Below, piece by piece: positions 36,646 through 57,761 of a DNA stretch of 64,000 nt. The stretch is taken from contig NZ_RZNF01000012.1 in assembly GCF_003992725.1 (NCBI RefSeq), positions 434,001 through 498,000 on the forward strand, given 5' to 3'. The DNA is from Rhodomicrobium lacus. GTDB lineage: Bacteria; Pseudomonadota; Alphaproteobacteria; Rhizobiales; Rhodomicrobiaceae. The position numbers and the translations under genes are program-made. Position 1 is the stretch's first letter; each line of letters opens with the position of its first letter. The notes under the pieces were generated by a model that was not told where the DNA came from, made no database searches, and was given only the letters and a program-made list of their open reading frames with translations.

Positions 36646-38031
36646 ATGCGGAAAAAGGAACTCGCGCTGGGTGCGTTCCTCGTCGCGCTGGTCGTTACCG
36701 GCGGATTTCTCTCCATGCCGCTCGTTCAGCGCCAACCCGCTCAGGCGACGAGCCCCGAAATCTACAAGAAACTCGAACTGTTCGGAGACGTGCTGGAGCG
36801 CGTGCGCGCGGAATATGTCGAGAAGCCCGACGACGCGAAACTCATCGAAAACGCGATCAAGGGCCTCGTGAACGGGCTCGATCCGCATTCGGCCTACCTC
36901 ACGCCCAAGGAATATCAGGACGAGCAGGCCGACACGCGCGGCGAGTTCGGTGGCCTCGGCATCGACGTGATGATGGAAGAAGGCGCCATCAAGGTCATCG
37001 CGCCGCTCGACAACATGCCAGCCGACCGTGCGGGCGTGCTCGCGGGTGATGCAATAACGGCGCTCGACGGCCAATCGGTGAAGGGACTGAGCATGGATGC
37101 GGCCGTGGACCGGATGCGCGGACCGGTCGGCTCGCCGGTGACGCTCACGATCCAGCGAAAGGGCGCCACCGCCCCGATCACCGTGAAAGTCGTCCGCGAT
37201 ATCATCAAGGTCAACCCCGTGGCGTACAGCGTCGAGGGCGACGCGGGCTGGATCAAGGTGAAATCGTTCGAGAATGAGCATACGACCGAGTATGTCCAGA
37301 AGGCGGTCGAAGACATCAAGAAGACGCTCGACGGCAAGGTCTCGGGCTATGTGCTCGACCTGCGCAACAATCCCGGCGGTCTCCTCGATCAGGCCATCGA
37401 CCTGACCGACGCGTTCCTCGACAAGGGCACCATTGTCGTAACGCGCGGTCGCGGCGCCGATGACATCGAGCGCACGACCGCGAAGCAGGGGGACATTTCC
37501 GACGGCAAGCCGGTGATCGTGCTTCTCAACGGCGGTTCGGCGTCGGCTTCCGAAGTCGTGGCGGGCGCGCTTCAGGACCACAATCGCGCGACGCTGCTCG
37601 GCACGCGCTCATTCGGCAAGGGATCGGTGCAAACGCTCATCCCGCTTGCCAACAAGGGCGCGATCCGCGTCACCACCGCACGCTATTTCACGCCGTCGGG
37701 CCGCTCGATTCAGGCGACCGGCATCGAGCCGGACTATGTTGTGGAGCCCGAACTTCCGCCGGAGCTGAAGCTGCAACTCGCCAGCGTGCCCTTCGAGTCC
37801 GAGGCTCAGCTGCGCGGCCATCTCAAGAACGCCGCCGCGACGGAGGAAGGGGGTGGCAGCATCTCCTACGTGCCGAAAGAGAAGGAAAAGGACAACCAGC
37901 TTCAGGCCGCGCTGGCCCTCCTCCACGGTCAGTTGCCGCAAACGGGAAAGAAGGCGACAGAGTCGCTGGATCAGGCGCGGGCCACGACTCCGGCGTCGAG
38001 CCCGCTGTCGAACGGCCCGTCGGGTGGCTGA
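36646..38031 (+). CDS. C-terminal processing peptidase, S41 family (copy 2)
   Basis: A 461-residue paralog of the CtpA at 8099-9457. Shared features include RVRAEYVEKPDD, ENAIxGxxxGLDPHS, EFGGLGI in the PDZ domain, the catalytic Ser in GGSASASEVVAGAL and the Lys in RSFGKGSVQT. The tail (KATESLDQARATTPASSP) differs. An N-terminal membrane segment at about 7-24 keeps it at the periplasmic face. It is a lone gene with a GC-rich hairpin just after the stop. The two copies may process different substrates. Confidence 0.94.
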   Translation: MRKKELALGAFLVALVVTGGFLSMPLVQRQPAQATSPEIYKKLELFGDVLERVRAEYVEKPDDAKLIENAIKGLVNGLDPHSAYLTPKEYQDEQADTRGEFGGLGIDVMMEEGAIKVIAPLDNMPADRAGVLAGDAITALDGQSVKGLSMDAAVDRMRGPVGSPVTLTIQRKGATAPITVKVVRDIIKVNPVAYSVEGDAGWIKVKSFENEHTTEYVQKAVEDIKKTLDGKVSGYVLDLRNNPGGLLDQAIDLTDAFLDKGTIVVTRGRGADDIERTTAKQGDISDGKPVIVLLNGGSASASEVVAGALQDHNRATLLGTRSFGKGSVQTLIPLANKGAIRVTTARYFTPSGRSIQATGIEPDYVVEPELPPELKLQLASVPFESEAQLRGHLKNAAATEEGGGSISYVPKEKEKDNQLQAALALLHGQLPQTGKKATESLDQARATTPASSPLSNGPSGG

Positions 38032-38809: not shown

Positions 38810-39280
38810 TCAGGAACGCTTTTCACCGAGAAGGGCCTGCAATTCGGCCTGTTCTTCGGGTGTGAGCGGCTTCGCACCCGCCGTTTCGAGGGGTTTGCGG
38901 CGGACGAGACGCGCGGCAAGCAACAAGCCTCCCCCGATGAGCAGCACAGGCGCTGCCCATAACAACAGGGTGTTGAATGTGAAAGGCGGCTTCAGAAGCA
39001 CGAAGTTGCCGTACCGCGCCACCACATAGTCGAGCACTTCCGTGTTCGTTCGCCCTTTTTCGAGCTGCTGGCGGACGATGATGCGCAGATCCTTGGCGAG
39101 CGGCGCGTCGGAATCGTCGATGGACTGGTTCTGGCAGACGAGGCAGCGAAGCCCGGCAGAAATGTCGCGCGCGCGCTGTTCGAGGGCCGGGTCTTTCAGT
39201 TGCTCCTGCGGATCGACGGCGAGCGCGGGCGTGACCGCGGCGGCGAACGTCAGGGCGAGCAGTGCAAGGAAGGAACGCAT
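38810..39280 (-). CDS. ccmH: Cytochrome c maturation protein CcmH
   Basis: Membrane-anchored thiol-disulfide protein that reduces apocytochrome CxxCH cysteines before heme attachment. The 156-residue protein has a signal peptide, the redox motif RCLVCQNQSIDDSDA near residue 47, a transmembrane segment LLLWAAPVLLIGGGLLLAA near 106-124, and a Glu-rich cytoplasmic tail. It starts 3 bases after ccmF and is the last gene of ccmIEFH. Confidence 0.96.
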   Translation of the reverse strand: MRSFLALLALTFAAAVTPALAVDPQEQLKDPALEQRARDISAGLRCLVCQNQSIDDSDAPLAKDLRIIVRQQLEKGRTNTEVLDYVVARYGNFVLLKPPFTFNTLLLWAAPVLLIGGGLLLAARLVRRKPLETAGAKPLTPEEQAELQALLGEKRS

Positions 39281-39283
39281 GTC

Positions 39284-41284
39284 TTACTCCGCTGGCAGGG
39301 CCGGGCCGATCTTGGGCGATTGCGAAAGCGGCGGCTTCCCCGCTCGCTGGCCAACGCCGATGCGCAGGCGCCGATCGAGCAGAGACAGGAACCCGCCGAT
39401 GAACATGAGAACCGCGCCGCCCCAGATCCACCGCACGAACGGGTGATAATAGGCACGGATCGAATAGGCACCGCCCGGCGCCTCATTCCCGAGCACCACG
39501 TAGACATCCGCGAACGGACGCACCGCGATGCCCGCCGCCGTGGTGGATTGCGGAGGCGCATCGTATTTTTTCTTCGCCGAGGTGATGGTGCCTATCACGC
39601 GATCGCCGCTCTTCAGCTCGAAGTCGCCAGCCTGCGCCGTGTAGTTCGGCCCCGGCTCGTCATAGACCTTCTTGAAGGTGATGCTGTAGCTGCCGACATC
39701 GATGCTGTCGCCGGGCTTCATGACCGCGAGATGCTCGGCATTCCATGCGGTCGTGCCCGCGATGCCGATGACGCTGACAGCGAGGCCGACATGTCCGAGC
39801 GTCGCGCCCCATTGGCTGCGCCGCATGTTGGCGATGCGCCGCGCCGTCTCGCCGAAGGAAACCTGGGCAAAACGCGCGCGCCAGAGCACTTCCCACACCG
39901 CGCCCGCGAATACCCATGCGCCCAGCGTCAGCGCGAGGCCGGTCTTGAAGCCGGCTCCCGCCATGACGGACGCGATCCCGACGATAACAGCGGCGACCGC
40001 AGCCGGGATGAGCCGGCGCGCCGCTTCATCGAGATCGCCACGCTTCCACGCGGTGAAGATGCCGAACGGAAGGAGAAGGAGCAGCGGCAGGAAGATCCAG
40101 ACGACCGTCGAATTGAAGAACGGAGCGCCGACCGAAATCTTGTCGCCGGTGGCGGCTTCCAGCGCGAGCGGATAGAGGGTGCCGACAAAGACGACGCCGC
40201 AGGACACCGTAAGGAACAGATTGTTCAGCACGAGGCTCGATTCGCGCGACACCACCGAAAAGGCCGTGCTGGCGGCAAGCGAATTCGAGCGCCAGGAGAA
40301 AAGGAGCAGGCCGCCCGCCGTGAACAGACTCACGATGACGAGAATGAAGACGCCGCGCGACGGGTCCGATGCGAAGGAGTGCACCGAAGTCAGCACGCCC
40401 GAACGCACGAGGAAGGTGCCGAGCAGGCTGAAGCTGAAGGTAAGGATCGCAAGCAGGATCGTCCACGCCTTCAGACTGTCGCGCTTCTCCATCACGATGG
40501 CGGAATGCAACAGCGCCGTGCCGGTCAGCCACGGCATGAGCGAAGCATTCTCCACCGGATCCCAGAACCACCAGCCGCCCCAGCCGAGCGTGTAATAGGC
40601 CCACCAGGAACCGATGGCGATGCCGATGGTGAGGAAAATCCATGCAGCGAGCGTCCACGGCCGCACCCAGCGCGCCCATGCGCTGTCGACGCGCCCGAGA
40701 AGCAGCGCCGCAATGGCGAAGGAAAAGGCCATCGAGAAGCCGACATAACCCGCATAGAGCAGCGGCGGATGGATCGCGAGCGCCGGATCCTGCAGGATCG
40801 GGTTAAGCCCCTGCCCTTCGAACAGCGCATTCGGGATGCGGACGAACGGGTTCGATGTCACGACGATGAACAGCGTGAATGTGAAGAGGATCAGCCCCTG
40901 AATGGAGAGCACCGCCGACCGCAGATCGAGCGGCAGGTTCTGGCCGAACAGCCAAACCGCCGCGCCGAACAGTGCGAGGATCAGCACCCACAGGAGCATC
41001 GAGCCTTCGTGGTTCCCCCACACGCCGGAAATCTTGTAGAGAAGCGGCTTTGCCGAATGGGAGTTTTCCCAGACGTTCGCCACCGAGAAATCGGAATTGA
41101 TATGCGCCCAGAGCAGCGCCGCGAAGGAGCCCGCGATCAGCAGGAAAGCGATCGGAGCGGCGGCGTCGGCCATGGCCATGAGGCGCGTATCGCGCATGCG
41201 CAAACCGGCGAGCGGCGCGGCAAACTGCACAACGGCGACGAAGAGAGCGAGGATGAGGGCGAAGTGGCCCAGTTCAACGATCAC
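39284..41284 (-). CDS. ccmF: Cytochrome c heme lyase subunit CcmF
   Basis: Large inner-membrane subunit that, with CcmH and CcmI, joins heme from CcmE to apocytochrome c. The product has about 666 residues and many membrane helices. The heme-handling WWD motif is WGGWWFWDPVENASLMPW. I prefer the GTG at 41284, which gives the family N-terminus (V/M)IVELGHFALILALF; upstream codons to 41401 encode a charged extension not seen in the family. It lies 214 bases after ccmE, the only sizeable gap in ccmIEFH. Confidence 0.95.
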   Translation of the reverse strand: MIVELGHFALILALFVAVVQFAAPLAGLRMRDTRLMAMADAAAPIAFLLIAGSFAALLWAHINSDFSVANVWENSHSAKPLLYKISGVWGNHEGSMLLWVLILALFGAAVWLFGQNLPLDLRSAVLSIQGLILFTFTLFIVVTSNPFVRIPNALFEGQGLNPILQDPALAIHPPLLYAGYVGFSMAFSFAIAALLLGRVDSAWARWVRPWTLAAWIFLTIGIAIGSWWAYYTLGWGGWWFWDPVENASLMPWLTGTALLHSAIVMEKRDSLKAWTILLAILTFSFSLLGTFLVRSGVLTSVHSFASDPSRGVFILVIVSLFTAGGLLLFSWRSNSLAASTAFSVVSRESSLVLNNLFLTVSCGVVFVGTLYPLALEAATGDKISVGAPFFNSTVVWIFLPLLLLLPFGIFTAWKRGDLDEAARRLIPAAVAAVIVGIASVMAGAGFKTGLALTLGAWVFAGAVWEVLWRARFAQVSFGETARRIANMRRSQWGATLGHVGLAVSVIGIAGTTAWNAEHLAVMKPGDSIDVGSYSITFKKVYDEPGPNYTAQAGDFELKSGDRVIGTITSAKKKYDAPPQSTTAAGIAVRPFADVYVVLGNEAPGGAYSIRAYYHPFVRWIWGGAVLMFIGGFLSLLDRRLRIGVGQRAGKPPLSQSPKIGPALPAE

Positions 41285-41498
41285 GGTCTTCTTTCTCCCA
41301 TGCGCCTCTGGCGTTTTCGGTCGCCGTTTCGCGTGATTGTCTGTCGTTGCCGAGGTCCGCACGCCTTTGCCAGGATCCGGTTGCGTTCCTCGGTTCGCCA
41401 AGGTTCATCGAAAGGTTTCAGCCTTCCGATTTGAAAGCTTCTCGTTCGCGAGCCGAAATCGCTTCGCTGAAAATGCTCCCGGTTCCAAGCGCGCCCGG

Positions 41499-41963
41499 TC
41501 AGGTGCCGGGCGTCGGCGCGGGTTGCTTCCCGCTCTTCTCCTGCCAATGGCCGTTCTTTTTCAGCGCGTCCGCAACCTCCGGCGGCATGTAATTCTCGTC
41601 GTGCTTTGCGAGCACGGTATCGGCAACGAACACGCCGTTCACAAGGCGTCCCTCCGCGACCACGCCCTGCCCCTCGCGGAACAGGTCGGGCAGGATGCCC
41701 TTGTAGCTCACGGGCAAGGAAGCCGCGTTGTCGGTGACAGAGAAAACATTCACCGCGTCGGCTTCGCGCTTGTAGCTGCCCGCTGCAACGAGGCCGCCGA
41801 GGCGGAAACGCGTGGCAGGATCGGGCGCGGCCTTGGCCACCTCGGCCGGGCTCATGAAGAAAGTGACCTGCGTCTGGAGCGCACTCAGCACGAGCGTCGA
41901 GGCCACGCCGATCAGCGCAAGGCCCATCACGATCAAAACCGCGCGGCGTTTCTTTCTCGTCAT
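41499..41963 (-). CDS. ccmE: Heme chaperone CcmE
   Basis: Periplasmic heme chaperone that binds heme covalently through a His and passes it to CcmF. The 154-residue protein has an N-terminal membrane anchor ([19 protein letters not shown]), an OB-fold and the heme-binding motif with His and Tyr in [12 protein letters not shown] near residue 125. Its start overlaps the ccmI stop as ATGA. Confidence 0.97.
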
Positions 41964-43075
41964 GTCCTCGGTTGCCCTCCCTGCCCGTTGGCGCCAAGTC
42001 CGGCTTCTTTTACGGCGGCTTCGATCTCTCGAAGAGCCTTCGCGTCGGATGCGAAAGCTTGCCGCGCGGTTTCGGCGGCGTCTTTAGCCTTGTCGTTTTC
42101 CTTCAGCACCGCGTAGGAGCGGATCAGCCTTATCCAGCCTTCGAGGTCGGACTTGTTCTCCTTGAGGCGCGCGGCAAGCCCGTCCACCATGCCGCGGATC
42201 ATCTTGCCCTGCTCTTCGGGGCTTGCCTGGGCGACATCGTTCGATTGATCCGGCGCAGAAAGAGCTGCAAGGCGCTGGTTCACAAGCTGCCTGAGCCCGG
42301 GATGCAGTTCGCCGGCGAGCATCGCCTTGTAAATTTTCTCGGCCTCGCCTCTGCGGCCATCCTGCTCGGCGATAAGACCGGTCCAGAGGCGGACGCGAAG
42401 CGACGTCGGGCTGAGCTTGGCCGCCGATTCGAAGGCGAGCCGCGCGCGATCGTTGATGCTGCCATCGTTGGCGAAGGTCAGCGCCTCTCCAAGGCCGAGA
42501 AGCTTCTCCTCGTCCATGCCGCCATATTCAATGGCGCGAGAATAGGCATCGGCTGCCTTGTCGAACAAACCGTTACGGAAATAGACCGGCGCGATGCGTA
42601 TCCATCCGGCTACGTCTTTCGGGTTCGCTCGCAGTTCGCGCTCAGCCTTCGCGATATAGACGTCGACGGTCTGCCTCTCGGGCGGCACGTTCAGACGGGC
42701 TTCGAGCGGCATATCCCGCAAGCCGGGCTGTCCATAGACGACATAGGTCGCGATGGTGCCGAGCGCGAGCAGCGCAGCCGTGGCGGCAGCGGCCACCGCG
42801 CTGTTTCCGCCGAACCCCACGCCCACGCCTTGCGATGAAGCGTTGCCCTGCCGGCTGGCGCGCAGCAGGCGCCGCGAAAGTTCAAGCCTCGTCTGGCGGG
42901 TTTCCTCCTGCCCGACGGTGCCGCGTTCGGCCTCGCGGTCGAGTTCGGCGAGCTGCGCCTTGTAGACTTCCACCTCTGACGCGCCCGCATGGGCATCGGC
43001 GGGCGCGCGCCTGAGCGAACGCGTCACCGCCAGAATTACGCCGGCCGTCAATAAAGCAAAGATTATCCAGATCAT
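41960..43075 (-). CDS. ccmI: Cytochrome c maturation protein CcmI (TPR chaperone)
   Basis: Holds the C-terminal helix of apocytochromes and delivers them to CcmF/CcmH. The N-terminal half has two membrane segments ([18 protein letters not shown] and [23 protein letters not shown]) flanking a cytoplasmic loop with a basic leucine-rich helix. The periplasmic part has TPR repeats ([10 protein letters not shown], then GEALTFAND). I prefer ATG 43075 over 43111, because it puts the first membrane helix at the N-terminus. First gene of ccmIEFH, downstream of pioC on the same strand. Confidence 0.93.
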
Positions 43076-43356
43076 CGCGCGCGACAGTACTCCGACAGCT
43101 TCGGGTGTCAAGGCTGTGAAAGACCAGTTAATGGGGACGAGATCAAGCTGTTCAAGCCGCCTCGCTCATTGGCGGAAGCCGGTCGCGGCGATTTTCGCCG
43201 GGAGGCCCCGAAGGCCGTCAAGCGGCGAAAGACGAACCAAGCCAAGCAGGCGCGGCCTCCGCGCCCCGACGCCGAAAGGACGCGCCGCCGGAGCGACGCG
43301 CCTTCGGGCGCGGCAATCGGTCCCGTCGAGCCATCGAAAAACCGCGCCGCCCCGCG

Positions 43357-43638
43357 CTAGCCCTTCTTGGAAAAGATCTTGCAGTAGCCGTTCGGGCTGA
43401 TGGTGCCTTCGACGACGCGGCAGCTTGACGGAGCCTGGAAGTGCTGACACAGGGCGCAGTGCTTGCCGCTATTCGGAGAACCCTGATAACCGACGGCCGA
43501 CTGCGCCGCCTTCTTCGCCACCTGCGCCTCCGCGCTGCCGGCCACGAGGCCGGCTGCACCGAGCGCGCCGAGCGCATAGGCACCGAATTTCAAAACCTCG
43601 CGGCGCGTGTTTCCGGCCTTGTTGCTGGTATCGTCCAT
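43357..43638 (-). CDS. pioC: High-potential iron-sulfur protein, PioC-like
   Basis: A 93-residue periplasmic electron carrier with one high-potential 4Fe-4S cluster, expected to pass electrons from PioA to the photosynthetic reaction centre. The N-terminus has a twin-arginine signal (NTRREVLKFGAYALGALG), needed because the cluster is inserted before export. Four Cys lie in the pattern C-x2-C-x8-C-x12-C (HCALC, SSC, GYC), as in the HiPIP family. A ribosome site AGAGGAA precedes the ATG. It follows pioB after about 510 bases and has its own promoter-like sequence. Confidence 0.9.
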   Translation of the reverse strand: MDDTSNKAGNTRREVLKFGAYALGALGAAGLVAGSAEAQVAKKAAQSAVGYQGSPNSGKHCALCQHFQAPSSCRVVEGTISPNGYCKIFSKKG

Positions 43639-43889
43639 GGGAGCGTTCCTCTTTCCTTTTGTTGGTTTTCGTTGCGCCGTTTTCCGGTTCTTCGCTATTG
43701 GCAGCCGCCGCGGAAAGTCCCTTGGCTGCGATAATCGTTACATGCTTCCGCGTCGCATCCCGCCTGAAGCGGCGAAATAATACCCCGCCAAAAGACTAGG
43801 ATTTACCCGTCAGCACTTGCAGCAGGTGTATCTTTTGATCATAACTTCAGTAGAACTGGCGCCAATCCGACAATTCTACCGAGATAGAC

Positions 43890-43917
43890 TTTATAGTGTG
43901 CTTAAGCTCGGCGTCAA
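43890..43917 (-). promoter_or_regulatory. Putative sigma70 promoter for pioC
   Basis: On the minus strand TTGACG (43917-43912) is followed by a 16-base spacer and TATAAA (43895-43890). Transcription would start near 43883, about 245 bases before the pioC ATG. Sequence match is good; activity is inferred. Confidence 0.55.
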
Positions 43918-43997
43918 GCCGAACGAGAATAATTCCAAGGTAGTAATTGTCGAATTTTTCGCGGAAAGATCGAAATCGAATAAAATGCGGTCAACGG

Positions 43998-44143
43998 GCG
44001 ATGCCACTGAAATGCCGGGCATCGCCTCGTGCCCCAGTCGCCGCAAATCCGTTCCCGTGCGCCGGGCCGCTGTGGGGACGTCATGACCCGGCGCACGAAA
44101 GATGAAGTCAGGTTACGCCCCGCCGTATATTTCGGGCGGGGCG
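43998..44143 (-). promoter_or_regulatory. Three consecutive stem-loops after pioB
   Basis: CGCCCCGCC/GGCGGGGCG (44116-44143) begins 7 bases after the pioB stop. GTGCGCCGGG/CCCGGCGCAC (44057-44096) has a 20-base loop. GCGATGCC/GGCATCGC (43998-44025) has a 12-base loop. None has a clear T-run. They may protect the pioAB mRNA 3' end or reduce read-through into pioC. Confidence 0.6.
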
Positions 44144-44149
44144 CGGCAT

Positions 44150-46702
44150 TTACCATTTGAAGTTCAGCGACGTGGCGACGACGTGAACATCGTAGTTCGG
44201 ATTGTAAGCGGCCATGGAGATATCGCGGCCCTGAGCCGAAGGATCAACCAGGTACATGTATGGCGTCACAAGATCGTTCTGCCAGTTGTCCACACGGGAG
44301 TGATCCCAACTGTACTTCAGTTTCCAGTATACATCACCATCGAAGCCCGTTTTCGTAACAAGTTCCGAGTCGAACTTGTACTTCAATACCGCATCGACAC
44401 GCTGAAGGTTCGTGTTAACGGTTGGATAGGGCATACAACCGGCGAGGTAAGTAGCCGAGCCCGGTGTCGCGCAAGCGCTGTTGCCCGAGAGGTCGGTGGC
44501 CGTCCAGTTCTCCTTGCCAAAGGCGATCGAATAGCTCGCGCTGAAGTCAAACTGATCATTCAGGGCGATGTTCGCGCCGACGATGAAGGTGTCCACGTCC
44601 TCCTTCATGTTGCTCGCCCAGCGGGTATTCACAGCCGCGATGGCGCCTGTTGCGGTATTCTGCAGCGTGTTGCTGCCGACGAGATCCCTGTCGGAATTTT
44701 CATGAACATAGGCAAACACGATGCTTGTGCCCGGCTTGAACGAGTAAGCCGCCTCAATACCTCCGTTCCAGCTGTAATCCTTCAACAATCCCATCTCGTA
44801 AGTCGTCGAGGTGGTTGTCGTGTTGTTGAAAGTTACGCTGCGGGAATACGCCTTGTTCGGGTCCGTCAGATAGTCGTCATTCCGAATTCCGAAGCTTGGC
44901 GTCAACGAGAGGTTCGACAGGTACGGGATATTGTCGAACGAGAACAGCACATTGCCCTTGTTTCTGTCGCGGTTTGCGAGGTCGAACTTGCGCTCGCCCC
45001 AGTTGTTCGATGTGCCACCCGTGCCGTCCGGGTAGATCGTCGCATACCAAGCTTGTGGATCGTAACGATCGTAGCGCCTTTCCGAGTACTGGTAGCTTGC
45101 CCGCAACTGGCCGATGTCGTTCCAGCGTGCATCTGCGTAGACCTTGCCGATCAACTCGTCGGTGCGAAGCGCCTCGCGGTTGTCGCGCTCGATCCTCTCC
45201 CAGCCCGCTGAGCCGCCGACCGAGGCGTTCTTGAGAACATGGTAAGTCAAATCCCCGGACGCGTTCTGCTTGGTATAGGAATAGCCGAAGTTTCTTCTAT
45301 CCACACTCAGGGCCGTATCTTCCGAAACCCATCTCCAGAAGGTCTCGGGAGTCTGGTTATCGTTGTCGTAGTATCGATAACGAAGCGTCGACTTGAGATC
45401 GTCGGTTATGCGCGTGTTGAGTACATTATTGACGAGCAGCGCATTGACCTCGCCATTGAGGCTGGTGGCGGTGTTGTACGTACGCCCGGTCGTGGCGTCA
45501 TAGTAGGGCGAGTTGTACGTGTTTAACGTCGTGCTCCCGGTCGCGATCGTCATCGGCATGAACGGCTCGTCCTGCCGCATCGTCGTGTACTGGACGGTGT
45601 TCATGAAACGCGAACTGAACGGCAGATCGATACCGGAGGTGATATTGCCGGAATACGCCTGATTGCTTGGCATGAGGCTGACGCGTGCGCATGGCGAAGA
45701 GCTCAACGCCGTATTGTACGTACTGGCGCAGCCTGCCGAGGTTCCACCGTCCGGCAGCGTATAGAACGGATTCTGCACAGTGTAATAGCTGTATTCGTTA
45801 TCGTACGTGGAAATACCACCCGTGATCTTGACGTTGTAATGGCCGTAAGCCCAGTCGCCGGAGCGCTCGCCGGACACCTTCGCATTCTGGGTGGTGTCAT
45901 CGACCGGCCGCGGCACCTGCACCATCTGTGTACCGGCGACGCCGCCCCAGTTTACGCCGGCGACCTGCGTGCCCTCCCGCTTTTCGTGGAAATATTGGAC
46001 ACGCGCTTCCCAGTTGGGGGTTGGCGTCCAGCGCTGATCCGCTTCAAAGCGATCACGGTCGATGCCGATCTTGATCGTCTTCAGATTTGCCGCCAACGTG
46101 CTGTTGATCAGATTTTTGGCCGCGATGCCGTTGGCACTGAGCGGATTGATAAAATCGGTCTGCGCGTACTTCTTCGCCAAGTCGCCGAGATTGACATTCG
46201 TCGTCAGATAGTTGGTGCCGACGCCGTTCCAGATGCTCTGCGCGGTCGTGCTGTAGACATGCGGGATCTGGTCCCACGTCACGGTGCCGGTCAGCACACC
46301 GGTGATTCCCCAGTCGAAGATGTAGCGCTGGTTGTTGTTGCCCACATCGGTCGCGCGAAGCTCGGCCACGTACGCGCCGTCCTTGGTCTGGGCGCCGGCG
46401 GTCAGCCTCTCGAGATAGGCGCCTTCAGGAACGTTGCCATATTCTTCGTACTTCGCGATGCTTCCCTTGTCCGGGCGCTGAACGCTCGGTGTGACCCAGG
46501 CCCTGCCGATGTCGCGCGGCTTCTCAATGAAGTACCGCCCGCCGAACTCGATGTCGCCCCAGGTGTCGAGTTCGATCTTCTCTTCGGCTGCGGGCGCGGG
46601 AGCCGGGGCCGGCTTGTCGCCCGCTCGCGCCGACTGCACGGCGAACGATGCCACCGCAATCGAAAGAATACTCGTCAGCACTACCCTGCCATGAAACTCC
46701 AT
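44150..46702 (-). CDS. pioB: Decaheme-associated outer-membrane barrel, PioB/MtrB family
   Basis: An 850-residue outer-membrane beta-barrel that should sheathe the decaheme cytochrome and let electrons cross the outer membrane. A signal peptide ends near SARAGDK, followed by an Ala/Pro linker and IELDTWGDIEFGGRYF, the start of the barrel. Alternating aromatic beta-strands follow, with C-terminal VATSLNFKW. The N-terminal CxxC found in Shewanella MtrB is absent, as in PioB. I chose ATG 46702, which has GGAGGGGATC just before it. It lies 107 bases after pioA. Confidence 0.9.
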   Translation of the reverse strand: MEFHGRVVLTSILSIAVASFAVQSARAGDKPAPAPAPAAEEKIELDTWGDIEFGGRYFIEKPRDIGRAWVTPSVQRPDKGSIAKYEEYGNVPEGAYLERLTAGAQTKDGAYVAELRATDVGNNNQRYIFDWGITGVLTGTVTWDQIPHVYSTTAQSIWNGVGTNYLTTNVNLGDLAKKYAQTDFINPLSANGIAAKNLINSTLAANLKTIKIGIDRDRFEADQRWTPTPNWEARVQYFHEKREGTQVAGVNWGGVAGTQMVQVPRPVDDTTQNAKVSGERSGDWAYGHYNVKITGGISTYDNEYSYYTVQNPFYTLPDGGTSAGCASTYNTALSSSPCARVSLMPSNQAYSGNITSGIDLPFSSRFMNTVQYTTMRQDEPFMPMTIATGSTTLNTYNSPYYDATTGRTYNTATSLNGEVNALLVNNVLNTRITDDLKSTLRYRYYDNDNQTPETFWRWVSEDTALSVDRRNFGYSYTKQNASGDLTYHVLKNASVGGSAGWERIERDNREALRTDELIGKVYADARWNDIGQLRASYQYSERRYDRYDPQAWYATIYPDGTGGTSNNWGERKFDLANRDRNKGNVLFSFDNIPYLSNLSLTPSFGIRNDDYLTDPNKAYSRSVTFNNTTTTSTTYEMGLLKDYSWNGGIEAAYSFKPGTSIVFAYVHENSDRDLVGSNTLQNTATGAIAAVNTRWASNMKEDVDTFIVGANIALNDQFDFSASYSIAFGKENWTATDLSGNSACATPGSATYLAGCMPYPTVNTNLQRVDAVLKYKFDSELVTKTGFDGDVYWKLKYSWDHSRVDNWQNDLVTPYMYLVDPSAQGRDISMAAYNPNYDVHVVATSLNFKW

Positions 46703-46809
46703 GATCCCCTCCCGCGCCGCCCAAGGCGCCTCTCCTGATTCGTCTCCGCCCATTCCTGACCGGTCCGCCCGAGACCGGTCAGGTTATTGTTTTTGCTTGG
46801 TTTATATTG

Positions 46810-48252
46810 CTACCGGTGCCATCTAGATCCCGACGGCGCGTTCGAGCCGTGGATATTGCTGTGGCAGTTCTGGCAGGCCAGACTGGTTGTCCGGCGCATG
46901 TTGTTCGCCACCGAGGGATCGGCCAGACCTGCAGTCGCATGCGGGACTGTATGGCACCGCTGGCAGAGCCGCTGGCGAGCCACCACGAGCAGGCTGTTGT
47001 GCATGGAGCCGTGCGGCTCGTGGCAGTTCATGCAGTTCTCGCGAACCGGCGCATGCTCGAAGAGGAACGGACCGCGCTTGTCGGCGTGGCACTGGTAGCA
47101 GGTGTCGTTGATGGTCGCTTCCTTCAGCATCGCCGTTTCCGAAGCGCTGCCGTGCGGGTTATGACAGCTGGAGCAGCTGATCTTGCCCTCGATCATCGGC
47201 ATGTGGGCACTGCGGAGGCTCTGCGCGCGGCGATCCTTGTGGCACTGGAAGCAGGTGTCCTGCACCGTGCCCTTCGCGAGCTGGAAGCGCGGGGAAGTCT
47301 TGCGCATGACGGTGTGGCAGTCCGTGCAGGCGACGTCGCGCGTCTCGTGTGTGCTGCCCTTCCAGTAGGTGCGGTCGTTCTTCTCGTGGCACTGCAGGCA
47401 GACAGCGTTCGTGTCGGCGACGGACGTGCGCGGATCGGACTTGCGGAACGAGCGGATGCCCCCGCCGAGACGACCGCCACCCCCGTTCACGTGCGCCGAT
47501 GCGGGGCCGTGGCAGGTTTCGCAGTCCATCTTGCCTTTGGGCGTGTCCTTGCCGGCCTCGAAATTGCGGCCCATGACCGTGAACTTGAATTCGTCGAACA
47601 GATAGGCGTGGCAGACCTTGCACGGCTCCGAGCCGACGTAATACCGGCCTTCCGGATCGTCGGGCGCGGCACGGACGACCTTCGCCTTCGCATCGGCGGC
47701 GGGAGCGGCCTCGGCGGCCTGCGCCTTGCCTGCGGGAGCCTTGGCCGCGTCCGGCTTGGCTGTGTCGGGTTTGGCGGACGGGACGGATTCCGCGACCATG
47801 ATCAGATGTTCGGTTTCGGCGTCGACCCCGCCGCCGGAGCTGCCTGAGCTACCGACCAGACCGGCTTCCGGCGTGAAGAGCGCATGATTGAGGAGCGCTT
47901 TCGCGGGGCTCGCCTTCGACAGGGAAAGACCCGAGTGCGGATTTGTGCCAATGCCCCCGTGCGCGCTTTTTTTTGCTCCGTGCGCGCTCTTGGCGCCATG
48001 CGCATCGGCCGGGGCCATGCCCGAAACGTCGGGATGCCCTGCCGGAAGCGGCTTGTCGCCCGCCTGAGACTGCATCGCATAAACGAAAACGTCGGAACCG
48101 ATCGCGGCGCTTTGTCCTGCCACCGCCTGCCCGCCCGCGATAGCGACCAGAAGGCCAAGTGCCGGCAGGGTCCAAATCGCTCGCTTTCGAAGGCGCAAAC
48201 GCCCCCGCTCCGGCTCTCCACACGAAGAGCCGGTCAAATTAGAGAAAAACAT
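46810..48252 (-). CDS. pioA: Decaheme c-type cytochrome, PioA/MtrA family
   Basis: Periplasmic/outer-membrane cytochrome that takes electrons from Fe(II) or a solid donor and passes them inward. The 480-residue protein has ten CxxCH heme motifs between residues 211 and 464: CKVCH, CETCH, CLQCH, CTDCH, CFQCH, CSSCH, CYQCH, CMNCH, CQRCH and CQNCH. Before them is a signal peptide (LPALGLLVAIAGGQAVA) and an extension of about 165 residues, His/Lys-rich at 83-100 and Ala/Pro/Lys-rich at 157-200. Such an extension separates PioA from shorter MtrA proteins. AGGAGGGGGCGC precedes the ATG. Confidence 0.93.
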   Translation of the reverse strand: MFFSNLTGSSCGEPERGRLRLRKRAIWTLPALGLLVAIAGGQAVAGQSAAIGSDVFVYAMQSQAGDKPLPAGHPDVSGMAPADAHGAKSAHGAKKSAHGGIGTNPHSGLSLSKASPAKALLNHALFTPEAGLVGSSGSSGGGVDAETEHLIMVAESVPSAKPDTAKPDAAKAPAGKAQAAEAAPAADAKAKVVRAAPDDPEGRYYVGSEPCKVCHAYLFDEFKFTVMGRNFEAGKDTPKGKMDCETCHGPASAHVNGGGGRLGGGIRSFRKSDPRTSVADTNAVCLQCHEKNDRTYWKGSTHETRDVACTDCHTVMRKTSPRFQLAKGTVQDTCFQCHKDRRAQSLRSAHMPMIEGKISCSSCHNPHGSASETAMLKEATINDTCYQCHADKRGPFLFEHAPVRENCMNCHEPHGSMHNSLLVVARQRLCQRCHTVPHATAGLADPSVANNMRRTTSLACQNCHSNIHGSNAPSGSRWHR

Positions 48253-48401: not shown

Positions 48402-48441
48402 ATTATAAGGAAATCGGATAAGCCCTGTTGCAGTAACGCAA
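48402..48441 (-). promoter_or_regulatory. pioA promoter with perfect FixK2-type box
   Basis: TTGC-AGTAAC-GCAA at 48428-48441 matches the FixK2 consensus TTG(A/C)-N6-(T/G)CAA exactly and lies inside the longer palindrome TGTTGC-N6-GCAACA (48426-48443). On the minus strand TATAAT lies at 48407-48402, predicting a start near 48395, which puts the box centre at about -40, the class II activator position. The -35 region itself is poor, as expected for an activated promoter. Confidence 0.7.
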
Positions 48442-48487
48442 CAAAATTACAAAGGATGACAAGGAACGAGAGCAATAAGCTCAACCT

Positions 48488-48501
48488 TTGATTTGCATCA
48501 C
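48488..48501 (-). promoter_or_regulatory. Second, imperfect FixK/FNR-like box
   Basis: TTGAT-TTGC-ATCAC matches the FNR/FixK palindrome TTGAT-N4-ATCAA at nine of ten defined bases. It lies about 60 bp upstream of the perfect box. It could be a secondary activator site or serve the other direction. Confidence 0.5.
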
Positions 48502-48899: not shown

Positions 48900-49292
48900 T
48901 CAGTGCTTGGAGAACAGATCCCGCAGCTTGCAAAGTGTCGTCGTGATGTCGAAGCGCTGATCCGGCAGCGCCTCGCCTGCAAGGATTCGGTTCAGCGCCG
49001 CCGTGGGATCGGTTTCGCCGGTCAGCAATACATCGGCGCCGCGCTTTTTCATGCGCCGCACGAAACCGTCGCCCGCGCTGCCTGCCACAACCACCTCGAT
49101 GCCATCCAAGGGGTGCGGCGCGTCATCCTCGAAATAGTGCAGGATTTGAGCATTGGTGAGCTGGATATGCCGTGGCGTGGGCAAAGGGTCGCCCGCCTTC
49201 ACCTCGGAAAGATCGTAAAGCAACCAGAATCGCGATTGCCCCGCATGTCCGGCGACACTTTGCCAGTCTTTCGTTGCGATTGCGATTTTCAT
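48900..49292 (-). CDS. NifX/NafY-like dinitrogenase cofactor-binding family protein
   Basis: About 130 residues of the NifX/NafY/NifB C-terminal family, which bind or carry iron-molybdenum cofactor precursors or other metal clusters. Features are MKIAIATKDWQSVAGHAGQS at the N-terminus and VVVAGSAGDGFVRRMKKRG, then VLLTGETDPTAALN. I chose ATG 49292 because GAGGGCGC precedes it and it gives the family N-terminus. No nif genes lie in the window, so its partner is unknown. Confidence 0.8.
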   Translation of the reverse strand: MKIAIATKDWQSVAGHAGQSRFWLLYDLSEVKAGDPLPTPRHIQLTNAQILHYFEDDAPHPLDGIEVVVAGSAGDGFVRRMKKRGADVLLTGETDPTAALNRILAGEALPDQRFDITTTLCKLRDLFSKH

Positions 49293-49530
49293 GCTGCGCC
49301 CTCGTCTCGTGAAAAAATCTCCGGGCATTTTATACCGCATTATCGGACGGTCGCCCCCAATTTTGCAAAATCCGGCGCTTTCGGGTCTTCTTCAGCGCCG
49401 GAAAAAGGCATCTGCGTAAGCGAATGGCCGGGCGGCATTCCGACTGCGCCGCAAAAGGCGTCTTTGTCGACCCGACGCGCAACAAAGACTTGCGAAGCGG
49501 CAAAAACTGCTCCATTGTCCGGCCCTGATC

Positions 49531-50113: not shown

Positions 50114-51433
50114 TTACGCCACGCCATTCCCGGCAGCACATTCGTCCACGGTCCAGCGCGTGATGTCCTCTTCCTCGGCGATCAGCGCAAGCCCGTTGGC
50201 AATCGAAACGAACTCGTCGCCGGTATCGACCTTCTCGGCACCGAAACGCTGAGTGAACAGCCGTCGCACCGCGGGGACGAAGGACGTGCCGCCGGTGAGA
50301 AACACCCGGTCGATGGCACCTGCGGCAAGTCCGGCCTTCGCAAGCGCGTCGTCGATGCTGGCGGAGAGATGGGCGAGGTCTCTCGCGATCCAGCGCTCGA
50401 AGTCGGCGCGCGCGATTTCAGCATCAAGCTCCACGCCAGACGCCGAAAATGTCAGCCTGGCGCTTGCGTCGCGAGACAGCCGCGTCTTGGCCTCGGACAC
50501 CGCCTTGTAAAGCGAATAGGCGACGTTGCCCTCGATGAGCGCGATGAAGCGCTCGATTTTCTCCGGCTCGACGCTCGCCGCAGCCAGTCTTTTCAGCTCA
50601 GCGACCGCGCCGGACGAGCGCATGAGGCAGAGATCGCTCCAGCGCGCGAAGCTGTGGTAGTAGCTTTGCGGCATGTCGAGCAGTTTTTCGAAGCTCCTGT
50701 ATTTCGACCCCTTGCCGAGTACCGGCGCGACGACATGATCGATGATGCGGAAATCGAACGTGTCGCCTGCCACGCCGACGCCGGAGAATGCGAGAGGCCG
50801 GGCATGCATGCCGCTCGGCGTCGGCTCGAACGAGACGATGGAAAAGTCGCTCGTGCCGCCGCCGAAATCGCCGACCAGCACGGTCGATGCCCGCGTCTGC
50901 CTGTGGGCATAGTAGTAGGCGGCTGCGATCGGCTCCATGACATGATAGATCTCCTCGAAGCCGAAGCGCTTGAACGCCGCCTCGTAGCGCTGCTGGGCGA
51001 GCGCGGCATCCGGCTTGGGTCCGGCGAATTTCACCGGCCTTCCAAGCACGAGCCGGCGCGGCAGGGTCGCGGAATCGCCGGAGCGCCTGTTCACCTGTTC
51101 GAAGAACGCAGCCAGAATATCCTCGAAGAGATAGCGCTTTCCATACACCTGCGTGTTCTGGAAACTCCGGTTGGCGGCGTAGGTCTTGAAGGACTGGAAA
51201 AAGCGCGTGTCCGTCGGGTAGGCGATGAAGGCTTCGATAGCCCACGGGCCCGCTTCGCAATGCGTTTCGGGCAGCCATTCGCCTTCTTCCCGCCAGAAGG
51301 CAAGCACGGATCGAAAAGACGAAAACTCGGCATCGGCGTGCGGAAACCTGACCGGCTGCACGCTTCCATCCGCCGTCTTCATGGCAAGCACCGTATTGGT
51401 GGTGCCGAAATCGATACCGATCGAAGAATTCAT
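50114..51433 (-). CDS. Hsp70-family protein, YegD-like
   Basis: A 439-residue actin-fold ATPase related to DnaK but lacking the substrate-binding domain. The phosphate loop is IGIDFGTTNTVLAM at the N-terminus, the second phosphate motif is VGDFGGGTSDFSIV, and the adenosine motif is VFLTGGTSFVPAVRRLF. It matches the YegD-like group of short Hsp70 homologs of unclear function. It is a lone gene between the tRNA-Gln region and kdpE. A chaperone role is inferred. Confidence 0.85.
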   Translation of the reverse strand: MNSSIGIDFGTTNTVLAMKTADGSVQPVRFPHADAEFSSFRSVLAFWREEGEWLPETHCEAGPWAIEAFIAYPTDTRFFQSFKTYAANRSFQNTQVYGKRYLFEDILAAFFEQVNRRSGDSATLPRRLVLGRPVKFAGPKPDAALAQQRYEAAFKRFGFEEIYHVMEPIAAAYYYAHRQTRASTVLVGDFGGGTSDFSIVSFEPTPSGMHARPLAFSGVGVAGDTFDFRIIDHVVAPVLGKGSKYRSFEKLLDMPQSYYHSFARWSDLCLMRSSGAVAELKRLAAASVEPEKIERFIALIEGNVAYSLYKAVSEAKTRLSRDASARLTFSASGVELDAEIARADFERWIARDLAHLSASIDDALAKAGLAAGAIDRVFLTGGTSFVPAVRRLFTQRFGAEKVDTGDEFVSIANGLALIAEEEDITRWTVDECAAGNGVA

Positions 51434-51648
51434 GATCGCGCTCTCGAACTGGCGTTGGCGCCGCTTCTGGGAGCGCGCGACACTACAGGCTTCTACGTTC
51501 GAGGCAACCCCGGGTTTCTACCAGATGCACGGCTGCATCCGCCGTGGTGATCGACGAGTTCCACGAGGGGGCGAAGCACTCCCCGTGAGCGCATCTAGAT
51601 GCCCGGAACAAATCGCCGCCGAACGGCGCTGCGCATTCAAAGCAGCTT

Positions 51649-52335
51649 CTACTTCAGCCGGTAGCCGACGCCGGTCTCGGTGATGATGTGCTCGGGACTT
51701 TCGGAATGCGCTTCGATCTTCGCGCGAAGCTGGCGCACATAGATGCGCAGATACTGCACGTCGGCGTTTGCGCCCCAAAGCTCGGCCATGATGAATTTGT
51801 GCGTCAAGACTTTCCCGGCATGAAGCGCAAGCAGGCGGAGAATGTCGTATTCCTTGGGGGAAAGCTTTACGTCGCTGCCGGAAAGCGTCACGCGGCGATG
51901 GACGAGGTCGATGCGCAGGTTGCCGCTTTCAAAAACCGGCTCGCCGCCTTCAGCCTGAACGCGATGGCGCAGCGAGGTGCGAAGCCGCGCGATCAGCTCG
52001 GCCACGCCGAAAGGCTTGGTGACGTAGTCGTCGGCACCGAGATCCAGCGCTTCGACCTTGGTCGCTTCCTCGCCACGGCTTGAAAGCACCACGATCGGCG
52101 TCTTGTCGCCGGAGCTTCGCAGCGTTCCGATGATCGCAAGCCCGTCCATGTCGGGCAGTCCGAGGTCGAGAAGGATGACTTCGGGCCGCTCGCGCGCGAG
52201 TGTCTCCAACGCAGCCTTGCCGTTCGTCGCCTCGATGATGGCAAATCCGTTCGCACCAAGACTTGTGCGCAGCAGCCTCCTGATTTGCGGCTCGTCCTCC
52301 ACAACGAGAACGAGAGTGCGGTCTGCAACTGTCAT
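51649..52335 (-). CDS. kdpE: Potassium-responsive response regulator KdpE
   Basis: DNA-binding response regulator that activates kdp when potassium is limiting. The 228-residue protein has a receiver domain with the phosphorylation Asp in VILLDLGLPDMDG and a C-terminal winged-helix DNA-binding domain (KLSPKEYDILRLLALHAG, then YLRIYVRQLRAKIE). Its start overlaps the kdpD stop. Last gene of kdpFABCDE. Confidence 0.96.
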   Translation of the reverse strand: MTVADRTLVLVVEDEPQIRRLLRTSLGANGFAIIEATNGKAALETLARERPEVILLDLGLPDMDGLAIIGTLRSSGDKTPIVVLSSRGEEATKVEALDLGADDYVTKPFGVAELIARLRTSLRHRVQAEGGEPVFESGNLRIDLVHRRVTLSGSDVKLSPKEYDILRLLALHAGKVLTHKFIMAELWGANADVQYLRIYVRQLRAKIEAHSESPEHIITETGVGYRLK

Positions 52336-55067
52336 GTGTCGCCCCGCTCGCGAGGTGGTCGGACGGTAGAGGATGCCGGAAAGGAAATCGCGAGGATCGC
52401 CCCCGTCCGGTCGGACCGGTTCGCGGCCGAAATGGCGCCGCCCATCGCTTCCACGAAGCCGCGACAGATCGCGAGACCGAGGCCGGTGCCAGCGCGCTGA
52501 CGGTCGCCGTGATCCGCGCGGTGGAATTTCTCGAAGACCGCCGACAGCTTGTCCTCGGGAATAGCGGGGCCCTCATCGATCACGCAGATGCGGACCGAGG
52601 AACCTTCTTTCCGCGCTCTCAGCGTGATGGTTGATCCGGCGGGCGCATATTTCCCTGCATTGTCGAGAAGGTTGACGAACACCTGCTCCATGAGGACAGG
52701 GTCGAGGTTCAGCAGCGGCAAATCCGGCTCGATATCGAACTCGACAGAGCTGTGCTTGAGCAGCGCGGCAACCCGGCGAACGGCGGCACCGAGAACTTCG
52801 GCTACGTCCACCGGCTCAAGCCTGAGCTGGATTGCGCCCGATTCGAGCCTCATCATGTCGAGCAGATTGGCTACGAACCGCGACATGCGTTGCGCCTCCT
52901 CCTCGATGGTAAGGACGAGATCGGATTTCGCCTGCGCGTCGAACAGGTCGCCATATTCCCGAAGAGAGTTCGCCGCCCCGAGGATGGATGCGAGCGGCGT
53001 CCGGAGATCGTGCGAAAGCGATGTCAGGAGCGCGCCCCGCAGCCGCTCTGCCTCGGCAGCGACACGCGCGTCGTCCATCTCCTTGGCGAGTTTCACACGT
53101 TCGATGGCGACAGCCGTTTGATCCATCAGCGCGTCGAGCAGCCGCCGCTCGTCCGGCGTGAGGATGATGTCGGATCGCAAGCCGGGTCCAAGCCCCACGA
53201 CGCCGATGATTCCGCGCCCGGTTCTCAGCGGCAGGAACAAGCGCCGCGCGCCCGGCAGGGTGTCCGCCCCTCTGCCCGCCGCAAGGCCGTTATCGATAGA
53301 CCATTTGGCCGCGCCGACATCCGAGTCCTCGATCGTGTCGCCGGGAGGAAAGGCGGCTGCGGCGCTCATCTGTCCATCTTGATCGGGCAACAGGATCACC
53401 ACATCCGCTTTCAGCGACGTCGCGATCTGCGAGACGGCCGCCCACAGAAGATCGTCGAGAGTGACATTGCTCGCGAGGTTTTTCGAGAAGGCGTAGAGCG
53501 CGCTTGTGATTGCGGCCCTGTTTCGCGCCAGTTCCGCCTGCCGCTTCACGCGTGCGGTCAGATTGCTGACGGCAAGCGCGGTGCAGAGAAAGAAGACGAG
53601 CGCGGAGACGTTGATCGGGTCCGCGATCGTGAACGTGTAGAGCGGCGGAAGGAAAAAGAAATTGTAGGCAAGCATGGCGGCAAAGGCGGCAAACAGCGAA
53701 GCCCCCAGCCCGAAATAATAGGCGATGCCGAGAACGCCCATAAGGAACAGGAGCGGGATCGTTTCGCCGCCCATGAAGGACTGCGCGAGGCGCGCCACGA
53801 GGACAACACCGGCGGTGGCGACAATCGCGGCAATGTAGCCGAGCGGATTGGCATGGTGCGACGCGGCGGCGGTCCGCACCGTCTTGCGCGGGATCGTCTC
53901 CTTGTTCAGCGCATCGCCCGCAATGACATGCACGCTGATGTTGGCGGAACGGCGAACAAGCTCGTGAACCACCGATCCATGCAGCAGTTCGAACCAGCGC
54001 GAGCGCTCCGATTTTCCGATGACGATCTGCGTGACGTTGTTGGACCGTGCGAAGTCCATTACATCGTCCGCCACGCGTCCGCGCCCCGGCAGCGTGGCCG
54101 CGACGCCCCCGAGCCGCTCCGCCAGCCGAAGCGTATCCGCGATGCGGTCGCGCTCGGCGACGGAGAGTTCCTGGCTGCGCAGCGTCTCGATGTAGAGCGC
54201 CGTCCAGGGTGCGCGCAAGCGGTCTGCGAGCCGCTTCGTATACCGCACGATCCCCGCCGAGCGCGGATCTTCGCTGATGCAGACGAGAACGCGGTCGCCG
54301 GCGGCCCAGGGCCCTTCGATGGCGTGCGCCTTCATGTGTGTAAGCAGTTGCTCGTCCACCCTCTGCGCGGTTCGCCTGAGAGCCAGTTCGCGGAGCGCCG
54401 TCAGATTGCCCGGCGAAAAATAGTGCTGAAGCGCGCGCTTCGCCTGCTCCGGCACATAGACCTTGCCCTCGCGAAGCCGCTGGATCAGTTCGTCCGGCGC
54501 GAGGTCGATCACCTCGATGTCGTCGGCCTTGTCGAGCACGAAATCGGGTACCGTTTCCTGCACGCGGATGCGCGTGATCTGCGCGACGACATCGTTCAGG
54601 CTGTCGACATGCTGGATGTTCAGCGTGGTGTAGACGTCGATCCCGGCCGCCAGCAGTTCTTCCACGTCGAGGTAGCGCTTGGGATGGCGGCTGCCGGGCG
54701 CGTTCGTGTGCGCAAGCTCGTCGACGAGCGCCACCTGCGGACGCCGCGCCAGAATGGCGTCGAGGTCCATTTCCTCGATGATGCGGCCCTTATAGCTTGC
54801 GGCCCTGCGAGGGACGATCTCGTAACCGGCGAGAAGCGCCGCCGTCTCCGGGCGGCCATGCGTTTCGACAACGCCGACCACGACATCCGCTCCCTCGGAG
54901 CGCTTCGCGCGCGCCGACAGCAGCATTTCGTAGGTCTTGCCGACGCCGGGAGCCGCGCCGAGGAAGATCTTCAACCGCCCGCGCTTTTCATCGCGGGCCA
55001 GTTCCAAGAGGGCGTCCGGCGACGGACGGTTCGTTTCCCTGGCGTCGGCCATCGGCTTTGCGCTCAC
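52332..55067 (-). CDS. kdpD: Potassium sensor kinase KdpD
   Basis: Membrane histidine kinase that senses low potassium or turgor and phosphorylates KdpE. The 911-residue protein has the cytoplasmic KdpD domain with Walker A FLGAAPGVGKTYEML (about 35-49) and a universal-stress-like domain. Four membrane helices lie around 410-510, then a GAF-like region. The catalytic His is in SLSHDLRTPLASILGAAN and the ATP-binding domain has GTGLGLAICRGFVEAMGG. It overlaps kdpC as ATGA. Confidence 0.97.
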   Translation of the reverse strand: MSAKPMADARETNRPSPDALLELARDEKRGRLKIFLGAAPGVGKTYEMLLSARAKRSEGADVVVGVVETHGRPETAALLAGYEIVPRRAASYKGRIIEEMDLDAILARRPQVALVDELAHTNAPGSRHPKRYLDVEELLAAGIDVYTTLNIQHVDSLNDVVAQITRIRVQETVPDFVLDKADDIEVIDLAPDELIQRLREGKVYVPEQAKRALQHYFSPGNLTALRELALRRTAQRVDEQLLTHMKAHAIEGPWAAGDRVLVCISEDPRSAGIVRYTKRLADRLRAPWTALYIETLRSQELSVAERDRIADTLRLAERLGGVAATLPGRGRVADDVMDFARSNNVTQIVIGKSERSRWFELLHGSVVHELVRRSANISVHVIAGDALNKETIPRKTVRTAAASHHANPLGYIAAIVATAGVVLVARLAQSFMGGETIPLLFLMGVLGIAYYFGLGASLFAAFAAMLAYNFFFLPPLYTFTIADPINVSALVFFLCTALAVSNLTARVKRQAELARNRAAITSALYAFSKNLASNVTLDDLLWAAVSQIATSLKADVVILLPDQDGQMSAAAAFPPGDTIEDSDVGAAKWSIDNGLAAGRGADTLPGARRLFLPLRTGRGIIGVVGLGPGLRSDIILTPDERRLLDALMDQTAVAIERVKLAKEMDDARVAAEAERLRGALLTSLSHDLRTPLASILGAANSLREYGDLFDAQAKSDLVLTIEEEAQRMSRFVANLLDMMRLESGAIQLRLEPVDVAEVLGAAVRRVAALLKHSSVEFDIEPDLPLLNLDPVLMEQVFVNLLDNAGKYAPAGSTITLRARKEGSSVRICVIDEGPAIPEDKLSAVFEKFHRADHGDRQRAGTGLGLAICRGFVEAMGGAISAANRSDRTGAILAISFPASSTVRPPRERGDT

Positions 55068-55699
55068 CGGCTCTGAATGGAAGCCTGCTGGGAGTCCTTT
55101 TGCTCATCGTCCAAGGCGAGATTGAGCAGAAGGACATTAACGCGCCGCTCGCCAAGGAAGCCAAGCGTTCTTTCTTCCGTTGCGGCCTCGACGAGAGCCC
55201 GGACGCGAGCGGATGGCAGGTTGCGGGCAGTTGCCACGCGCTCCACCTGCGCGGCGGCATTCGCTGGCGAGATGTGCGGGTCGAGGCCGCTGGCCGATGT
55301 GGTGGCTGCATCCGCGGGAACCGGCCCCGCGCTGCCATTGGCTTGTCGGTAGTCGGCGACGCCCGTCTGAACGCGGTCGACCAACGTTTTCGAAGTGGGT
55401 CCCGCGTTGGAGCCGGCAGAGTTCGCGGCATTATAAGGAGCGGATACAGTTTTCGACGGGTCGGCCGGATCGGGCGCGACCGTGGCCGAGGGGCGGCCCT
55501 GGAAATAGCGCCCCGATGTGAAGGTCTGGCCGATCAGCGCCGATCCGACGACATGGCCGTCGCGCGTCAGAAGGCTGCCGTTTGCGCGCTCCGGGAACAC
55601 GGCTTGAGAGAGCGACGTCACTGCGAGAGGATAGGCAATCCCGGTCAGCGCGGTCATGAAAAGGATCATGACAAGGGCGGGGCGGAGTGTTGCGAGCAT
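55064..55699 (-). CDS. kdpC: Potassium-transporting ATPase subunit KdpC
   Basis: Single-span subunit that stabilises the KdpFABC complex and helps nucleotide binding by KdpB. The 211-residue protein has one N-terminal membrane segment (LRPALVMILFMTALTGIAYPL) and the family patterns GSALIGQTFTSGRYFQGRPS and GLDPHISPANAAAQVERVA. Overlaps kdpD by 4 bases and starts 9 bases after kdpB. Confidence 0.96.
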   Translation of the reverse strand: MLATLRPALVMILFMTALTGIAYPLAVTSLSQAVFPERANGSLLTRDGHVVGSALIGQTFTSGRYFQGRPSATVAPDPADPSKTVSAPYNAANSAGSNAGPTSKTLVDRVQTGVADYRQANGSAGPVPADAATTSASGLDPHISPANAAAQVERVATARNLPSARVRALVEAATEERTLGFLGERRVNVLLLNLALDDEQKDSQQASIQSR

Positions 55700-55708
55700 G
55701 GTGAGCCT

Positions 55709-57754
<2,046 letters not shown>

Positions 57755-57761
57755 GGGTGCC

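Follow-up and report, generated by a model that had tools for sequence, protein, structure and literature searches.

The question raised by this locus is whether Rhodomicrobium lacus carries a complete set of genes for light-driven uptake of electrons from outside the cell, and how closely this set follows the model of the pio (phototrophic iron oxidation) genes of Rhodopseudomonas palustris TIE-1. The DNA analysed, referred to below as the window, is a stretch of 64,000 nucleotides of the R. lacus genome (assembly GCF_003992725.1, contig NZ_RZNF01000012.1, positions 434,001 to 498,000 of the forward strand). An earlier note, based on these letters alone, had claimed a complete pioABC-like locus with the arrangement known from R. 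palustris. The genes pioA, pioB and pioC are indeed all intact open reading frames, at the positions and in the order given there (Table 1); they lie on the minus strand, a point that the note had left out. The claim of completeness holds, and that of the R. palustris arrangement stands as regards gene order but not as regards spacing, since pioC is set apart from pioB. The locus is very likely an ortholog of the pioABC genes of R. palustris TIE-1 and encodes a conduit for electron uptake, a function that it would also serve in this strain.

The locus was compared within a set of four Rhodomicrobium genomes with pio loci, the window genome included; genomes G108 and G167 were taken as R. vannielii and R. 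udaipurense, respectively. The named relatives nearest to the window genome are Rhodomicrobium udaipurense JA643 and Rhodomicrobium sp. Az07. The pioABC genes of R. vannielii were listed in 2017 (PMC5566968), and in 2019 the PioAB complex, N-terminal processing of PioA, Fe(II) oxidation and electrode uptake were reported for both R. vannielii and R. udaipurense (PMC6831781). The pio genes of these two species were resequenced in 2021, with published identities of 88, 80 and 89% between the pio genes of the resequenced R. vannielii ATCC 17100 and those of the older genome (PMC8104044). Compared with G108, taken from its size as this older genome, the window shows identities of about 84% for pioA and 87% for pioC and a lower value for pioB, so that the window strain is probably not the resequenced ATCC 17100. 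The locus of R. lacus is a further member of this published kind: its layout is nearly identical to that of G108 and G167, with the same wide spacing of pioB and pioC, the same operator and ccm genes beside pioC, and it differs in sequence only (81-84% DNA identity for pioA and 87-89% for pioC). The PioB protein shares only about 69% identity with those of other Rhodomicrobium strains, which suggests that the barrel surface and its partner contacts may differ within the genus.

Table 1. Features of the pio locus of R. lacus and its surroundings (positions in the window).
Feature	Position	Strand	Remarks
ccmH	38810..39280	-	
ccmF, haem lyase subunit	39284..41401	-	sole CcmF/NrfE match in the window genome
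ccmE, haem chaperone	41499..41963	-	
ccmI (cytochrome c maturation)	41960..43111	-	245 nt after pioC
pioC, high-potential iron-sulfur protein (HiPIP), 93 aa	43357..43638	-	four cluster cysteines, twin-arginine signal
promoter-like TTGACG-N16-TATAAA	43890..43917	-	279 nt upstream of pioC
two strong hairpins directly after pioB	44050..44148	-	11-bp stem arms 44056-44066 and 44087-44097
pioB, MtrB/PioB outer-membrane beta-barrel, 850 aa	44150..46702	-	ORF open to 46753
pioA, periplasmic decaheme c-type cytochrome, 480 aa	46810..48252	-	ten CXXCH, Sec-type signal
TATAAT-like -10 element of pioA	48402..48407	-	conserved spacing
palindrome TGTTGC-N6-GCAACA, upstream of pioA	48426..48443	.	exact in 4/4 Rhodomicrobium genomes

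Searches of the kind proposed in the earlier note matched the three proteins to a decaheme cytochrome family, to the MtrB/PioB family and to the solved PioC, with E-values that exclude chance matches. PioA contains exactly ten CXXCH motifs, in line with the decaheme cytochrome that had been claimed. It scores 249 bits (cut-off 192) against TIGR03508, a decaheme family holding DmsE and related proteins, and its residues 200-477 match MtrA of the solved Mtr complex (chain 6r2q_A). PioB matches PF11854 (MtrB_PioB; 1.1e-99) over nearly its whole length, as well as TIGR03509 (5.3e-101). An AlphaFold model of PioB, built from 11 relatives and of moderate confidence (mean pLDDT 69.7, pTM 0.62), is made up largely of long strands. 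Among solved structures MtrB is by far its closest match (6r2q_B; TM 0.81 on the target, E 9e-31), the other barrels listed reaching a TM of 0.43 or less. Both the family matches and the MtrB-like predicted fold thus agree with the proposed MtrB/PioB barrel. PioC matches the solved PioC of R. palustris TIE-1 (6xyv; 3e-13), and its four cluster cysteines are invariant across 14 sequences (window and 13 others). Its N-terminus contains an RR motif, and the match to the Tat signal family PF10399 is weak and below the cut-off (20.2 bits versus 24); with this one qualification, its description as a Tat-type HiPIP was confirmed.

A decaheme cytochrome combined with a barrel is also found in Shewanella MtrAB, whose MtrB the PioB model resembles in fold, and in MtoAB of iron oxidisers. 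We considered whether the pair could be an outward conduit of the Mtr or Dms type, delivering electrons to metal oxides or DMSO, with the HiPIP as an unrelated neighbour. The name of the NCBI family matched by PioA (DmsE family) is in keeping with such a role, as is the ability of MtrAB-type conduits to run both ways (PMC8805035). In a maximum-likelihood tree of the haem domains (47 rows, 283 columns, mixture model), however, the window PioA falls within a 14-row clade (support 100/99), whereas DmsE rows, recognised by their DmsA neighbours, and MtrCAB rows form a separate clade (99/94), and the starred branches part PioA from both DmsE and MtrA rows. Grouping with DmsE, which had been named beforehand as the outcome contrary to the pio reading, was not seen. 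The haem domain of the window PioA is 90-92% identical to those of three Rhodomicrobium PioA and 35-46% identical to those of MtrAB/MtoAB systems, which have no PioC and, in the case of Mtr, add the outer cytochrome MtrC. No OmcA/MtrC-family cytochrome that could accompany an MtrAB pair was found in the window genome (two f269 genomes served as positive controls). Nor was a DmsA-type molybdoenzyme seen adjoining the pio locus, which shows neither of the features of a DmsEFAB system (a cytochrome of the DmsE-type clade and adjacent DmsA/DmsB). The HiPIP belongs to the R. palustris PioC family and is kept at the same place in 15 genomes, contrary to what is expected of an unrelated neighbour. 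An outward conduit of this type is, in view of these results, extremely improbable, and an inward-directed pio conduit remains the preferred reading.

All 14 rows of the clade are PioA proteins encoded at pioABC loci, and a reaction centre is present in every one of their genomes that has a handle (in the case of L020, a contig of R. udaipurense, pioC was read in G167, taken as the same strain). The window PioA is thus placed in a single clade common to its reaction-centre-bearing relatives. Among these is L111, with 71% identity in the haem domain, whose PioA (540 aa) includes ATREPR, the residues with which mature TIE-1 PioA was found by experiment to begin (PMC6831781), and whose FixK box has its centre 221.5 nt upstream of the start codon. 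The TIE-1 paper places the FixK I box at -44.5 and the transcription start site at -177; L111 was identified as a TIE-1-type Rhodopseudomonas because both ATREPR and the position of the FixK box are identical to those of TIE-1. The closest proteins outside the phototroph clade (52-57% identity) are those of PioAB-like pairs from Xanthobacteraceae without reaction centres. Unlike the window genome, these carriers have no pufLM, and no pioC was seen alongside their pairs. Some of the pairs (L117-L121) adjoin other multihaem cytochromes or ccm genes.

Among the loci read, PioC is encoded beside PioAB in 15 of 15 reaction-centre genomes and in none of the 10 genomes without a reaction centre, some of whose stretches stop at contig edges (L118, L125). 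The distribution of PioC follows that of the reaction centre; PioAB on its own is found in relatives lacking a reaction centre as well. Mapped onto the PioA tree, the co-occurrence of PioC with reaction centres amounts to a single change, which points to an inherited package rather than to a repeated association.

The lack of reaction-centre genes had been named as a further outcome that would speak against the pio reading; however, pufL and pufM are present in the same genome, together with a tetraheme pufC and RuBisCO. The sequence thus confirms that this Rhodomicrobium has all the genes of the set that allows iron or electrodes to serve as electron sources in the light. In these respects the organism resembles R. 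palustris TIE-1, with which it shares (i) the order of the pio genes, (ii) a ten-haem PioA with an N-terminal extension, (iii) an MtrB/PioB barrel, (iv) a Tat-type HiPIP, (v) the absence of an outer-surface cytochrome and (vi) the presence of a reaction centre. Four departures from the R. palustris model, all read from sequence and none of them seen described in the open full texts searched, are the gap before pioC, the palindrome upstream of pioA, PufC and the N-terminus of PioA. It is probable that the locus is regulated in another way than in that model and that its electrons end at another acceptor.

With respect to the acceptor, the reaction centre of the window organism has a bound tetraheme PufC, in contrast to that of TIE-1, in which a multihaem reaction-centre cytochrome is absent (PMC10304953). 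A search recovered PufC from Rhodomicrobium, f29, g566 and g598; none was found in the Rhodopseudomonas-type genera g582, g600 and g562. Based on these data, the following path may be proposed. After export, PioA would lose its N-terminal extension, receive its ten haems from the Ccm system (ccmIEFH being encoded nearby) and be seated in the PioB barrel. Fe(II) or a solid donor would give up electrons outside the cell, and these would cross the outer membrane via the PioA haems, with no outer-surface cytochrome, to reach the HiPIP PioC in the periplasm and then the photo-oxidised reaction centre. For the window organism PufC is the most likely acceptor of electrons from PioC, so that the last step would run via this bound cytochrome.

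The N-terminal part of PioA deserves separate consideration. The first haem motif is located at residue 211, compared with residues 41-117 in MtrA and DmsE rows, the MtrA rows lacking a comparable extension, and about 160 residues separate the signal from the first haem. This extension is shorter than that of TIE-1 PioA and has no clear sequence similarity to it; of the internal hydrophobic region at which the extension would be cut, only a weak hydropathy peak at residues 119-160 was seen, and the sequence of the cleavage site is not conserved. In five f29 genomes (L029-L033) with pioABC and pufLM, the first PioA haem is at residue 82-101 and the extension is nearly absent, in contrast to the PioA-like proteins published so far, whereas the Xanthobacteraceae carriers of PioAB without reaction centres have about 200 residues before the first haem (at 198-218). 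A long N-terminus is therefore neither universal in pioABC phototrophs nor confined to them, and the statement on the extension in PMC6831781 needs to be qualified in the light of the short f29 and long Xanthobacteraceae forms. The window also contains two similar S41 proteases of the CtpA type (8099-9457, minus strand, and 36646-38031, plus strand). The latter adjoins the ccm genes in the window strain and may be a candidate for the trimming of PioA; it is a lead only, since it was not found beside the ccm genes in R. vannielii or R. udaipurense.

The gap between pioB and pioC comprises 511 nt in the window and about 500 nt in all four Rhodomicrobium genomes, compared with up to about 160 nt elsewhere, at loci with both ends clear. 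In this respect, and in having ccmIEFH after pioC, the locus differs from that of TIE-1. The hairpins that follow pioB have a fold z of -3.3 versus shuffles and are not followed by a U tract; their stem sequence is kept in 4/4 Rhodomicrobium genomes. An Rfam search near the pio locus detected tRNA only. The promoter-like sequence upstream of pioC is identical in three of the Rhodomicrobium genomes and carries one change in Az07. With pioC located 511 nt from pioB, a three-gene operon is not certain, and the features of the gap suggest that pioAB and pioC may be transcribed separately. The genes ccmI, ccmE, ccmF and ccmH follow pioC in the window, G108 and G167, while the single ccmF of G030 lies about 15 kb off, so this adjacency is not universal in Rhodomicrobium. 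As ccmF is the sole copy in the window genome, it serves all c-type cytochromes. If there are two units, expression of the haem-loading machinery and the HiPIP would be coupled, apart from that of PioAB.

The promoter region of pioA also differs from that of TIE-1, in which a canonical FixK box drives pioABC. No conserved canonical FixK box (TTGA-N6-TCAA) was found at the pioA promoter of the four Rhodomicrobium genomes, and the window has another palindrome in its place. One candidate resembling the TIE-1 FixK box, at 48488-48501 (TTGATTTGCATCAC, with a single mismatch), was rejected because the three other Rhodomicrobium genomes do not share it. Another sequence, TTGAT-N4-ATCAA at 38708, is perfect but is situated where ccmH and a protease gene converge, between their ends, and is thus unlikely to be a promoter element.

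Within the window genome only two sites carry the exact 12-base palindrome, and in G030 only one. The second site precedes an outer-membrane beta-barrel gene (PF13505), where the palindrome is found in three Rhodomicrobium genomes with other spacer bases (around base 1501 of L144, L145 and L146). This recurrence supports the view that the pioA palindrome is a real operator, to be read as either of two types. The whole palindrome fits TGT-N12-ACA, the PpsR motif, and could be a PpsR/CrtJ-type photosynthesis-repressor site tying pio expression to light and oxygen. Its inner part, TTGC-N6-GCAA, fits the FixK2-box consensus, TTG(A/C)-N6-(T/G)CAA (PMC9104804), and in 4/4 Rhodomicrobium genomes the first base of the -10 element is the 28th base after the palindrome centre, a distance that suits a class II activator site of the CRP/FNR type. 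In view of these two features a PpsR/CrtJ-type site seems rather unlikely, and we favour a FixK-like CRP/FNR activator site.

The atypical promoter also bears on the main use of a genuine pio conduit, which could lie in redox balancing, solid-mineral uptake or iron detoxification rather than in growth on Fe(II). Besides the lack of the TIE-1 FixK box and the recurrence of the palindrome before an outer-membrane barrel gene, a passage in PMC5571419 cites a description of Fe(II) oxidation by R. vannielii as a side reaction. However, Fe(II) oxidation and the drawing of cathodic current have been observed in both R. vannielii and R. udaipurense, and PioAB complexes of the two species have been identified; we consider a different main use improbable. 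With regard to the R. lacus locus as a whole, it is possible, although somewhat doubtful when all parts are combined, that (i) pioAB are controlled by a genus-specific palindromic operator shared with an outer-membrane barrel gene, (ii) pioC has its own promoter, with read-through into the sole ccmIEFH genes, and (iii) PioC feeds the bound tetraheme PufC and not a bare reaction centre as in R. palustris. In open full texts we found no description of the promoter-like site of pioC, of the Rhodomicrobium operator or of a PioC-PufC link.

Upstream of pioA, an ORF of 146 aa (48900-49340, minus strand), for which searches of Pfam and NCBIfam gave no match, has its end some 460 nt ahead of the pioA operator. 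The region 50114-59471 (minus strand) encodes an Hsp70-like protein, whose family scores are weak, and after it a kdp-like potassium-transport cluster, whose KdpE, KdpD and further genes were named from the appearance of their sequences.
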